Source: Bacillus sp. J37
GTDB taxonomy: Bacteria; Bacillota; Bacilli; Bacillales; Bacillaceae
NCBI RefSeq assembly: GCF_000518865.1
Contig: NZ_KI912515.1
Coordinates: 145,843-209,842 of the forward strand
Reading direction: 5' to 3'
DNA length: 64,000 nucleotides
The translations under genes and the position numbers were made by a program. Below the pieces are notes generated by a model. That model did not search any database. It was not told the origin of the DNA and saw only the letters and a program-made list of their open reading frames with translations. The first letter of the stretch is position 1. Every line of letters starts with the position of its first letter. Below, piece by piece: positions 7,518 through 29,997 of this stretch.

Positions 7518-8267
7518 ATGAATGATGTAATTAAAACGATTTTAAATCATCGTTCCATACGCAAATTTGAGGATAAACCATTATCAGATGAACAAATTAA
7601 ACTGATTGTTCAAAGTGCCCAAGCTGCATCAACTTCAAGCTATATTCAGGCATATTCTATAATTGGTGTGAAAGATAAAGAGAAAAAGCGGAAATTAGCA
7701 GAGTTAGCCGGAGGGCAAAACTATGTAGCGGAAAATGGCCATTTTTTTGTTTTTTGTGCAGATTTACATAGGCATCAGTTGATTGCTGATCAATATAATC
7801 AGGATGCAAGTGAAATTCTCGAGAGTACGGAAAAGTTTATGGTTGCTGTGATAGATGCGGCTCTTGCGGCACAAAATGCTGTGCTCGCTGCTGAATCAAT
7901 GGAACTTGGAGCGGTATATATCGGAGGTTTAAGAAACCAACTGTCTGAAGTGGCGAGTTTATTAAAGACCCCTTCACATGTTTTGCCGCTTTTTGGTATT
8001 GCAGTAGGTTATCCGGCACAGGAGCCTGATCAAAAGCAAAGACTTCCGTTTGAACATGTGTATCATGAAGATGAGTATCAACAAGATCAGACAAGCTATT
8101 TAAGTCAACTAAAAGAATATGATCAACAAATTTCTGCGTATTATGAACAGCGTACAAATGGAGAAAGAAAAGACACATGGACTGGTCAAATGGCGCACTT
8201 ATTATCTAGACCGACTAGAATGTATATGAAAGAATTTGTGGAGAAAAAAGGCTTTAATAAGCGGTAA
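7518..8267 (+). CDS. nfrA: NfrA-type NADPH-dependent nitro/FMN reductase
   Basis: Oxygen-insensitive nitroreductase-family flavoprotein (249 aa) of the NfrA/FRP type, which uses NADPH to reduce FMN, nitro compounds and disulfides such as CoA disulfide. The FMN-binding HRSIRKFEDKPLS near the N-terminus, QAASTSSYIQAYSIIGV, and MELGAVYIGGLRN are family marks. AAAAGGAGG lies just upstream of ATG 7518. The gene corresponds to ywcG next to qox in B. subtilis, where it is Spx-controlled; no Spx evidence can be read here. Confidence 0.9.
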   Translation: MNDVIKTILNHRSIRKFEDKPLSDEQIKLIVQSAQAASTSSYIQAYSIIGVKDKEKKRKLAELAGGQNYVAENGHFFVFCADLHRHQLIADQYNQDASEILESTEKFMVAVIDAALAAQNAVLAAESMELGAVYIGGLRNQLSEVASLLKTPSHVLPLFGIAVGYPAQEPDQKQRLPFEHVYHEDEYQQDQTSYLSQLKEYDQQISAYYEQRTNGERKDTWTGQMAHLLSRPTRMYMKEFVEKKGFNKR

Positions 8268-9843: not shown

Positions 9844-10749
9844 ATGTATCCATATCCTGTTTATCCGTATTATGGGCAAAAACAACAAACAAAGATGCAG
9901 CCGATTGTATTTCCTCCGCAACATCAAAACCGCCAACCTGGTTTTGAATATGAAATGAATCCTCCGCCGATTTCAGAATGGGAAGGGTATAAAGGAAGTG
10001 GAAAGTTAAAAAATAAGGTGGCGATTATAACCGGAGGGGATAGTGGGATCGGGAGGGCGGTTGCTTATGCATTTGCGAAAGAAGGGGCTGCAATCGTAAT
10101 TCCTTATTATAATGAGCATCAAGATGCCCAGACAACGAAGCGCAGAATTGAGGAGTTGGGTGGAAACTGCTTATTATTTTCTGGAGATCTGTCCCGGGAG
10201 CAAACGTCTTATGACGTCGTGAAATTGGCCGTCCAAACCTTTGGTCGCTTGGACATTGTTATAAATAATCATGCTGTACAATTTGTGCAGAAAAGTATTC
10301 TGGATATTTCAGCTGAGCAACTGGAAAGAACGTTTAAAACAAATATTTTTGCCTTTTTCTATATGGTAAAAGCAAGTTTGCCTTATTTACAAAAGGGGAG
10401 CTCCATCATTAATACAACATCCATAACAGCGTATGAAGGAAATAAAACGTTAATTGATTATTCTGCAACAAAAGGAGCAATCACAACATTTACAAGATCT
10501 TTATCCTTATCACTTGTGGATAAAGGAATAAGAGTGAATGGAATAGCACCTGGTCCAATCTGGACTCCGTTAATTCCGGCGAGTTTTTCAGCGAAAAATG
10601 TATCAACATTTGGTTCAGATTCGGAAATGAAAAGACCAGGGCAACCTTTTGAGCTTGCACCTGCATATGTGTATCTTGCATCAGATGATTCACGCTATGT
10701 TACAGGCCAAGTATTACACGTAAATGGAGGTCAATTTCGCACTTCGTGA
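9844..10749 (+). CDS. SDR-family oxidoreductase with Tyr/Pro-rich N-terminus
   Basis: Classical-type short-chain dehydrogenase (301 aa). The Rossmann glycine motif TGGDSGIGRA is near residues 63-72, the active-site Ser lies in NTTSITAYEG, and YSATKGA gives the Tyr-x3-Lys pair. The NNAG motif is altered to NNHA. The first ~45 residues are unusual: MYPYPVYPYYGQKQQ and a proline-rich stretch, as seen in Bacillus general-stress and spore-associated SDRs of the YhdF/YdaD group. Substrate cannot be told. GGGAGGG precedes ATG 9844. Confidence 0.88.
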   Translation: MYPYPVYPYYGQKQQTKMQPIVFPPQHQNRQPGFEYEMNPPPISEWEGYKGSGKLKNKVAIITGGDSGIGRAVAYAFAKEGAAIVIPYYNEHQDAQTTKRRIEELGGNCLLFSGDLSREQTSYDVVKLAVQTFGRLDIVINNHAVQFVQKSILDISAEQLERTFKTNIFAFFYMVKASLPYLQKGSSIINTTSITAYEGNKTLIDYSATKGAITTFTRSLSLSLVDKGIRVNGIAPGPIWTPLIPASFSAKNVSTFGSDSEMKRPGQPFELAPAYVYLASDDSRYVTGQVLHVNGGQFRTS

Positions 10750-11115
10750 AAGAACTTAGTTACGACAAAACACCCTGTGAATAACTTGTTTATAGGAGAT
10801 AATAGTCCTATATATATTGTGGCGAACGAATGTACCCACACAAAATGTGGATAGAAATTGTGGATATGTTGATAACTTTTGTGGATAAGTTGTTGTTAAC
10901 TGGATAATAAGCTGTTAATATCTAAATTTTTACGTTATAAAAGGTAAATACCTCAAGAAATATCAACAATTTGCAAATGAAAGCGCAGTTATCCACAATT
11001 GAAAAATAAAATCTGAAGTATTTGAGGGGACCGATTATAAAAAGGTCCCTTTGTATTTGAATGAACAATTTTACTTTGACGCACGATAAGTAGTATCTAC
11101 TTCAAAGGACGTGTC
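10750..11115. other. Intergenic DnaA-box cluster
   Basis: Perfect TTATNCACA boxes occur at 10776-10784 (as TGTGAATAA), 10880-10888 (TGTGGATAA) and 10989-10997 (TTATCCACA, opposite orientation). One-mismatch boxes are at 10846-10854 (TGTGGATAG) and 10859-10867 (TGTGGATAT). A sixth perfect box, TTATCCACA, is at 11443-11451 within the next gene. B. subtilis has a known DnaA-binding cluster between ywcI and vpr, close to its nfrA (ywcG), so this looks like the positional counterpart. No dnaA or dnaN is nearby, so it is not oriC. Confidence 0.75.
11025..11052 (+). terminator. Hairpin ahead of the flavoprotein gene
   Basis: AGGGGACC pairs with GGTCCCTTT around a 12-nt loop, followed by a weak T-rich tail. 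It may end transcripts from the left or be leader structure of the gene at 11116. Confidence 0.5.
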
Positions 11116-12030
11116 ATGATGTCAAAGAATACATATGAATGTTTAATCGTTGGGGCAGGAATTGCCGGTTTGCAGGCTGCTATTCAATTAGGGAGATATA
11201 TGCATAAGGTAGTAGTCATTGATTCTGAAGATGGAAGGTCAAACTTATGCAGAGGCTATCATAATATTTTGGGATGGCCGGACGGCGTAAGTGGTGAAAC
11301 CCTTAGGGAATTAGGGAAAAAACAAGCAGCACAGTATGGGATTGAATTTATAAAAGATTATGTTATCGAAGCTAAAAAAGATCAAGAAAGAATAATGGTG
11401 AAAACGAAATCAGGTAAAACCTATGAATCCACAACACTTTTGTTATCCACAGGAATAAAAGATCGAATACCCGGAATTAAAAACATAAACCCGTGTTTAG
11501 GTGTTTCCATCTATGTTTGTCCGGATTGTGATGGCTATGAGGTAAGGGATCAGCATGTTCTCCTTTTAGGGGCAGGGAAAACAGGTGCAAATTTAGCGCT
11601 AACTCTTACTTATTGGACAGACAAGATTACGTTTATTAATCATGATGGAGAAATAGAGCTGTCATTATTAAATGAGCTCAAGCAAAAGAACATAGCTGTT
11701 ATCAATGAAGAGATTGACGGGATTATCACTGAAAATGAATCAGACTTTAAAGGTGTGACATTAAAAAATGGACAAATCGTACATGGGGATAAGGGATTTA
11801 TCGGATTTGGCGGAAATGCTGTTCATTCGGAGCTTGCAAAACAATTAGGTGTGGAGAGGCTTGAAAACAAACATGTCCTGGTAGATCCTCGAACAAAGGA
11901 AACAAATATAACAAATGTTTGGGCAGCGGGAGATCTTATTGCCCACTCAGAACAAGTGACCATTGCGATGGCAGATGGATGTCAAGCAGCCATATGGATT
12001 CATAAACGACTATTGAAAAACAATAAGTGA
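11116..12030 (+). CDS. Thioredoxin-reductase-like FAD/NAD(P)H oxidoreductase
   Basis: 304-aa class-II pyridine-nucleotide flavoprotein with the TrxB fold. The FAD-binding GAGIAGLQAAIQLGR is at the N-terminus, a redox CxxC in YVCPDCDGYE sits where TrxB has CATCDG, the NAD(P)-binding GAGKTGANLA follows, and the C-terminal FAD motif is WAAGDLI. The active-site loop differs from housekeeping TrxB, and GGWPDG-like first-domain residues resemble the paralogous TrxR-like family of bacilli. It is therefore probably not the essential TrxB; its electron acceptor is unknown. ATG 11116 and ATG 11119 are both possible, with AAAGGACG upstream. Confidence 0.82.
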   Translation: MMSKNTYECLIVGAGIAGLQAAIQLGRYMHKVVVIDSEDGRSNLCRGYHNILGWPDGVSGETLRELGKKQAAQYGIEFIKDYVIEAKKDQERIMVKTKSGKTYESTTLLLSTGIKDRIPGIKNINPCLGVSIYVCPDCDGYEVRDQHVLLLGAGKTGANLALTLTYWTDKITFINHDGEIELSLLNELKQKNIAVINEEIDGIITENESDFKGVTLKNGQIVHGDKGFIGFGGNAVHSELAKQLGVERLENKHVLVDPRTKETNITNVWAAGDLIAHSEQVTIAMADGCQAAIWIHKRLLKNNK

Positions 12031-13719: not shown

Positions 13720-14574
13720 CTAAACAGTATGTTTCTCTTGCCTAATTTCTCCTGGCGATTTTCCGGTGAGTTTCCTGGTTATCTTATTTAAATAATTCGC
13801 ATTTTTATACCCGACTAACTGTGCAATTTCATCAACTGTATATCTTGTATGCTGCAAAAGCTCGATGGCCTTTTGTAGGCGAATATTTGTTAAATATTGA
13901 ATAGGCGTTGTCCCAGTTTCTTCTTTAAACAATCTTGTAAAGTGATACTTTGATAATTTTGAAGCCTCTGCCATTTCCTCTGCTCCAATATCATCCTGGT
14001 AATAGTTTTGGGCGAATAAAACAGCGCTTATAATTCCTTCTGACCAATCCTCCATAAATTTATCAACTGTTTTTAAGGATAAAGATAATTCCATTAAAAA
14101 TTGATAGGCAATGCTTGAGCCATGGTAGGCATTGGTGATTTTTTTTTCGATTGAATCATCGTAAATTTGCTTAAGCAGTTTAATGAGTGTTGACTCTGGA
14201 TGGAAACGAACAACCTGGTTGTCTGATTTTTTAACCTGCTCCCAACAGCGCTTTGCTTCGTTCCCATATAAGGTTAAATAGAGAAATTCCCATTTTGTTG
14301 ATTGTTGAGGTAAATAATAACGATAATTACTTGGACTGTTCACAATAAATGCATGACCTGCTTTTAGTTGATGAATACTTCCGTCAATATTGATTTCACC
14401 ATGTCCTGATAATGTATATTGAAAAATGTATTTATCTTGATCCTTTCTTTCTGTACCGCTCCAAGAATAAATCGATGAATCCTGTTCATCCCAACCAACA
14501 GACCAAATTTGTGCAACTTTGTTCACATTAGGTTCATTAAACCGAAAAACAATTGCGCCCTTTTTCTTTTCCAT
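13720..14574 (-). CDS. AraC-family regulator, divergent from gal operon
   Basis: 284-aa regulator with an N-terminal AraC-type cupin sensor (~20-160; GHGEINIDGSIHQLKAGHAF) and two C-terminal helix-turn-helix motifs (~190-280; IGAEEMAEASKLSKYHFTRL and YTVDEIAQLVGYKNANYLNK). ATG 14574 is chosen because AAGAAAGGGGGA lies upstream; the longer frame from 14670 has no ribosome site. It reads away from galK with 231 bp between them, so control of the Leloir genes by galactose or a related sugar is the natural inference. Confidence 0.85.
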   Translation of the reverse strand: MEKKKGAIVFRFNEPNVNKVAQIWSVGWDEQDSSIYSWSGTERKDQDKYIFQYTLSGHGEINIDGSIHQLKAGHAFIVNSPSNYRYYLPQQSTKWEFLYLTLYGNEAKRCWEQVKKSDNQVVRFHPESTLIKLLKQIYDDSIEKKITNAYHGSSIAYQFLMELSLSLKTVDKFMEDWSEGIISAVLFAQNYYQDDIGAEEMAEASKLSKYHFTRLFKEETGTTPIQYLTNIRLQKAIELLQHTRYTVDEIAQLVGYKNANYLNKITRKLTGKSPGEIRQEKHTV

Positions 14575-29214: not shown

Positions 29215-29997
29215 TTACTCTGCCATCTTTTCCAAGTTTCCATTACGGTCCATTTTAAATGTTGTAGGTGCTGTGCGGTCTTCTTCATCAAATAGGACAA
29301 GCTTACGAGCACGGTTCATGATTTTCATTAGTGTTTCATAGTCTTCTTGAACGGTTACTGTGTCTTGTTCTAATTTTTCGACTTTTTTCATCAGCTCATC
29401 ATTTTGTAAAGATAAATCTTGGTTTTCTTTCTTTAATCGTTTATTTTCACTTACTAATGCTTCTGATTGTAGATTGTTTGTTTTATAAGACTGCAAGAAT
29501 GCAATAACATGATCCATTGTTAATCTGTTATTTATGCTTACAGGCTGCTTGATTTGCGGCATTTCTTTTGGTTGTGCTGCAGGTGCTTGATTACTGAATG
29601 GTGTTTTAACATCTTCGTCAGCCGGCATCACTTCAGCCATATGACTCTCTAAACTTGCCAACATGGTTTGCTCTTCATGTTGATCAAAATCATCGATTTC
29701 CATCTCCATAGTAGGTGTATCAGGCGTATATAAAAGCTGCTTTTTCACTGGTTGACCTTTTCCCAAAGCTCTCATCCGCTGTTTACGCTGTTTTTTAGCA
29801 AGTGATAACGCTTTCTCATAATCATGGCGAACAACGGCATTCCAGCGGAACCCACAAGCAGCAGACGTACGATTTAATTTGTCTCCTACTTCTTCAAAAG
29901 CATTTAATTGAGTACTGCCTTCCCTCACATGACGTAAAACCGTTTCAGCTAGTAATAAATCATTCTCTTCAGACCATGCGTCTTGTCTTTGTTTCAT
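29215..29997 (-). CDS. rsfA: Prespore transcriptional regulator RsfA
   Basis: 260-aa regulator of the RsfA/YlbO-type Myb-SANT-like family that in B. subtilis tunes SigF-dependent genes in the forespore. The N-terminal DNA-binding domain (residues 1-60) has [20 protein letters not shown] and the signature [10 protein letters not shown] low-conservation middle is followed by a coiled coil (~165-235; [20 protein letters not shown]). ATG 29997 is chosen because AGGGAG lies 9 nt upstream. Formerly ywfN. Confidence 0.93.

Follow-up and report, generated by a model that had tools for sequence, protein, structure and literature searches.

We conclude, with a probability of about 0.72, that the gap at positions 10750-11115 of the window (the whole analysed stretch of 64,000 nucleotides from Bacillus sp. 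J37) holds a functional DnaA-binding array away from the origin, which corresponds to the ywcI-vpr cluster of B. subtilis, was copied from the yyzF-rlmH segment, and would lower the amount of free DnaA by cooperative binding. The array lies between a gene for a short-chain dehydrogenase (SDR; 9844-10749, plus strand, Pfam PF13561) and one for an FAD/NAD(P) oxidoreductase (FADox; 11116-12030, plus strand, Pfam PF07992). The nfrA gene (7518-8267, plus strand) is the synteny anchor common with the B. subtilis group. The closest relatives of its product are the NfrA proteins of Metabacillus niabensis and M. halosaccharovorans, with 98% identity, and the genome is that of a Metabacillus. The original prediction had read the gap correctly as a DnaA-box cluster matching ywcI-vpr, and that identification is borne out by the nfrA/qox synteny and by a fixed core of boxes; the fixed spacing of this core and its origin as a duplicate had escaped it.

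DnaA boxes were called by their mismatches to the consensus rather than by a published matrix. A motif scan of the window gave perfect boxes (TTATNCACA) at 10515(-), 10776(-), 10880(-), 10989(+) and 11443(+) and boxes with one mismatch at 10846(-), 10859(-) and 10867(-), the gap itself containing three perfect and three one-mismatch boxes. Three perfect and two near-perfect boxes within 222 bp had been expected; the perfect count and the span (10776-10997) stand, while the near-perfect boxes number three. The scan also located the further perfect box anticipated 446 bp on in the next gene, at 11443-11451 in the LLSTG codons of the FADox gene. A perfect box inside the upstream SDR gene (10515-10523, minus strand) had been overlooked. 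Boxes at or near the positions of these two coding boxes occur in some Metabacillus species, with synonymous codons in others; since the 11443 box has been lost in this way from part of the genus, we regard it as peripheral.

The centre of the cluster is a core of five boxes, all on the minus strand, at offsets 0, 13, 21, 34 and 67 (window 10846, 10859, 10867, 10880 and 10913). Core boxes 1 (10846-10854, CTATCCACA), 2 (10859-10867, ATATCCACA) and 3 (10867-10875, TTATCAACA) each have one mismatch, boxes 2 and 3 sharing one base; box 4 (10880-10888, TTATCCACA) is perfect and box 5 (10913-10921, ATATTAACA) is weak, with two mismatches. A weak two-mismatch box with conserved columns (TTAACAACA) occupies 10891-10899 on the same strand. 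Upstream of the core are the perfect box at 10776-10784 (minus strand, TTATTCACA) and, 11 bp further on, a two-mismatch box (10787-10795, minus strand) where several relatives have a one-mismatch box. Downstream is the perfect box at 10989-10997 (plus strand, TTATCCACA).

The conservation of the site was followed in nfrA regions no longer than 20 kb, drawn from 48 further members of the family and representing six genera: 16 Metabacillus genomes, 20 of the genus Bacillus and 12 from four further genera. The assignment of g2 to Bacillus in the strict sense was deduced from its vpr / ywcI / sacT-sacP-sacA layout. A DnaA-box cluster was present 1.1-7.7 kb downstream of nfrA in 48/48 genomes, and the site thus occupies a syntenic position beside nfrA/qox. 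Its flanks fell into at least nine different contexts. The neighbours are vpr and ywcI-sacT in Bacillus, chrA and sacT in g3, vpr and fruK in Bacillus sp. PAMC26568, and SDR or a Tol-like gene on one side and FADox on the other in Metabacillus, with others in g4-g6. Where dnaA and nfrA lay on one contig, the cluster was on one side of dnaA and nfrA on the opposite strand to dnaA in all cases (31/31 genomes); the distance from dnaA was 103-486 kb overall and narrowed to 172-206 kb for the eight Metabacillus genomes among them. One genome appears to be misnamed: labelled Peribacillus frigoritolerans strain F-D2 (L013), it grouped by layout and NfrA sequence with Metabacillus idriensis and fell in genus g3 (as G049).

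The site resembles ywcI-vpr of B. subtilis (DnaA region 3, PMC4447404) in its nfrA/qox synteny, the side of oriC on which it lies, the core spacing and the CAAAA before the core, but differs in its flanks, which are vpr and ywcI-sacT there and SDR and FADox here. Since flanks vary across the family, those that give the B. subtilis site its name were not treated as defining. The core boxes here are also nearer to consensus than those of the genus Bacillus, in which core box 1 is degraded. As foreseen, vpr is absent: no vpr-like subtilase was found at the nfrA locus, and a copy with 44% identity sits elsewhere in the genome. This gene (contig C88, 244301-246310) is about 8 kb past the ywlB-ywlC DnaA cluster.

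This turnover of neighbours bears on the possibility that bound DnaA represses or activates the adjacent FADox or SDR gene and so ties it to replication status. The array does lie upstream of a gene, in B. subtilis the ywcI-vpr site seems to be one at which DnaA represses both vpr and ywcI-sacT (PMC4447404), and both are listed as direct DnaA targets (PMC8203912). On one side of the cluster, however, are vpr, chrA, SDR, Tol-like or nfrA genes and on the other ywcI-sacT, fruK, FADox or others. The neighbours on both sides vary between genera and the family therefore has no common target gene, which makes local gene control unlikely as the common function. Because the five-box core persists while the genes beside it change, selection appears to act on the site itself and not on the flanking genes, as the original prediction held; in each of the 48 genomes compared, the cluster beside nfrA/qox contains this one core. 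The history of the array would be that of a site kept for its own sake rather than for a neighbouring gene.

Box maps showed that the core spacing of 13-8-13-33 bp is constant across the nfrA loci of the family. Scored over all five boxes, the core had 4-11 mismatches of 40 in 48/48 genomes; among 914,909 other positions none had fewer than 15, and other clusters in the same genome scored 15-19. Within Metabacillus the mean pairwise identity was 0.95 in box columns, 0.65 in spacer columns and 0.64 in the flanks. Conservation extended to letters outside the boxes. The CAAAA before core box 1 had an identity of 1.00 in Metabacillus and 0.98 over 46 family loci, and was retained in Bacillus even where core box 1 had decayed. 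It belongs to a near-invariant CACAAAA (10839-10845, plus strand) that is common to the clusters at nfrA and to the rlmH loci described below; CTTC and TGTTTGTAA are the other non-box letters conserved across families. The clusters therefore have sequence in common, in spacing and in non-box letters, beyond single boxes. Part of the boxes, those 21, 32 and 54 bp from core box 2, lie near whole helical turns from it.

A survey of 399 Bacillales genomes with a pattern of core boxes 2-4, allowing up to three mismatches, gave matches in 336/399, exactly one in about 318 of these, and almost none with the reversed control pattern. The core lies at the nfrA/qox locus in the family of this genome (f1) and in f32. 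In every other examined family (f3, f6, f11, f13, f14, f17, f23, f28, f29, f42 and f44, with some families from other orders of the class) it stands beside yyzF in the gap between htrC (yyxA) and rlmH (yydA). No such core was found at the NfrA loci of other families. At the rlmH locus of f1 a box cluster is still present with the full core degraded, and boxes are absent from the rlmH gap of two f32 genomes (G110 and G152). Families f2, f14 and f37 lacked the core wholly or nearly so in the boxes 2-4 survey. The yyzF-rlmH gap is a known DnaA site of B. subtilis, the yyzF/yydA cluster. That cluster has homologous core boxes and spacers and a yyzF 3' end in common with the array, but its locus is ancestral and widespread with intact yyzF and rlmH, whereas the truncated copy here lacks both genes.

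The relation between the two loci goes beyond the boxes. Over 39 non-box columns the likeness between loci was 18.45, compared with 10.93 (sd 1.0) in column shuffles. A profile of the whole element, made from the rlmH loci of other families, matched window 10770-10957 (plus strand) with an E value of 1.8e-27 in nhmmer. A second profile, covering the yyzF 3' end and spacer upstream of the core and built solely from rlmH loci of other families, matched the nfrA-locus clusters collinearly with a best E value of 7.8e-8 (2.3e-6 for window 10770-10844), compared with 3.3 for the best reversed decoy. A 32-bp profile free of boxes found window 10808-10833 (plus strand) with an E value of 0.0014, the best decoy reaching 0.61, at an offset from the core identical to that at the rlmH locus. 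In nfrA loci from other families, and in six further cluster regions within this genome, the best E value of either of these two profiles was no better than 1.1. In the alignment the window translates as PIYIVANE against a yyzF ending of xxYIVGN-stop; segment 10808-10833 is thus a yyzF 3'-end remnant that has lost its stop and has no DnaA box inside. The perfect box at 10776-10784 aligned to the TGTGAAT codons of yyzF and core box 5 to the region of the GTG start of rlmH at the ancestral locus. An extension of the duplication into the rlmH coding sequence was rejected, as a downstream-only profile gave an E value of 9 in the window with decoys down to 0.04, and the independent claim is therefore limited to the upstream yyzF part.

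By the yyzF remnant and the profile matches, we identify the array at nfrA as a duplicate of the segment from the yyzF 3' end to the rlmH intergenic region. The copy at nfrA appears to be the derived one, judging from distribution and structure: yyzF is intact at the rlmH locus, which occurs widely across the class, whereas the copy at nfrA is truncated and has a known range of f1 and f32 only. We found no description of this duplication in the open-access subset of the literature. It would explain the origin of the strong ywcI-vpr site of B. subtilis. An array that keeps exact spacing, is nearly always single in a genome and has been copied whole to another place also amounts to a natural experiment.

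Box enrichment, orthology, core spacing, duplication, neighbour turnover and position were established by sequence; we infer DnaA binding in this species, an ordered oligomer and an influence on initiation timing. After copying of the older yydA/rlmH cluster into the qox-nfrA neighbourhood, several DnaA molecules would bind cooperatively on the fixed, partly helically phased boxes. Lying near oriC, the array would be doubled soon after initiation; the doubled array would leave less free DnaA for oriC and initiation would be restrained, as has been reported in B. subtilis. The most likely role is thus cooperative binding of DnaA that cuts free DnaA after oriC has fired. Of 269 DnaA regions of B. 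subtilis, only the eight that bound most strongly in vitro were also occupied in vivo, and ywcI-vpr is one of them; it comprises 11 sites and binds ATP-DnaA with a Kd of 0.13 uM (PMC4447404). Deletion of six off-origin clusters caused early initiation, with partial relief when one was restored (Okumura 2012, as related in PMC5295017 and PMC13220808). Restraint of initiation is published for combined cluster deletion in B. subtilis only (PMC5295017, PMC13220808).

With its fixed spacing and its conserved letters outside the boxes, the array is more suggestive of an ordered complex than of a plain sink. A sink needs neither, and pure titration is therefore probably incomplete as an account of the array. 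The fixed spacing makes simple titration and an ordered DnaA complex testable alternatives. Bacillus-type bacteria count DnaA without datA, DARS, Hda or SeqA, none of which they are known to possess. More tentatively, and with the odds somewhat against it, the 13-8-13(-33) array may be a discrete, relocatable DnaA nucleoprotein module of which genomes of Bacillales and related families keep roughly one each, its ancestral home being the yyzF-rlmH gap. Bacillus, Metabacillus and f32 would then have the full core in the qox-nfrA copy and a decayed or boxless old copy, and geometry rather than box number alone would carry the function, perhaps together with another protein that recognizes CACAAAA/CTTC.

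The retention across families of the 13-8-13-33 spacing and of non-box letters, beyond the needs of a sink, could also point to a site at which the array and another factor alter the nucleotide or oligomer state of DnaA. This would be functionally like E. coli datA and DARS, which are likewise DnaA-box arrays away from the origin that affect initiation. Those sites are characterized by dependence on IHF or Fis and by a change in the nucleotide state of DnaA. B. subtilis is reported to have no IHF, datA or DARS and no known regulator of DnaA nucleotide exchange (PMC13220808), and the conserved letters could be mere weak boxes or reflect shared descent; we give such remodelling a small probability.

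With an A+T content of 68%, the gap might be thought to contain boxes by chance. Its density of boxes with at most one mismatch was 16.4/kb, compared with 2.3/kb (18 in 7.95 kb) for the remaining gaps of the window; it contained three exact boxes against one across all those gaps. None of 3000 dinucleotide shuffles matched either count. The cluster is therefore dense above background, and the comparison of box density with other gaps, by which the original prediction could have failed, favours it. With these shuffles and a fixed spacing conserved over 48 genomes, a chance cluster due to A+T richness is ruled out for practical purposes. Among other readings of the gap, a conserved small ORF was rejected, only short unsupported frames being present, as was an intrinsic terminator or promoter explanation: the gap scan gave no intrinsic terminator, and promoters no more numerous than in shuffles.

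The box array looks like part of an origin, but dnaA, dnaN and a box-rich rpmH-dnaA gap lie elsewhere (contig C20), the segment descends from the yyzF-rlmH gap and not from oriC, and the search of gap 10750-11115 for a DnaA-trio-like trinucleotide run found none, so that a secondary or former replication origin is highly improbable and membership of oriC, with its adjacent dnaA/dnaN and trio or unwinding element, was rejected.

A pattern search of the draft assembly gave at least 365 exact DnaA boxes in 5.34 Mb, with clusters of TTATCCACA at about nine places among the matches listed. Six of these correspond by their genes to strong DnaA regions of B. subtilis, namely rpmH-dnaA (oriC), trmE-jag, rlmH(yydA)/yyzF, ydiF-gcp, sda-yqeG and ywlB-ywlC; other strong regions, oriC included, thus also have counterparts in this genome. 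One further cluster is gap 10750-11115, the ywcI-vpr counterpart, and two are without known counterpart. Apart from these assignments, a 9-box cluster was observed upstream of an N-acetylmuramoyl-L-alanine amidase gene (L085:5763-6056; contig C36, about 13763-14056). It is kept in 20/20 Metabacillus genomes with a close orthologue (L239-L258), lies roughly 515-660 kb from dnaA on the other side in complete genomes, and is not a strong B. subtilis region. An alpha/beta-hydrolase gene has another cluster at its 3' end (L084:9349-9493; contig C31, about 29348-29492), conserved in Metabacillus with varying density (L264-L283). In complete genomes this cluster is about 190-234 kb from dnaA, on the side opposite to the nfrA-locus cluster (172-206 kb). 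The two positions nearly mirror each other, perhaps by chance.
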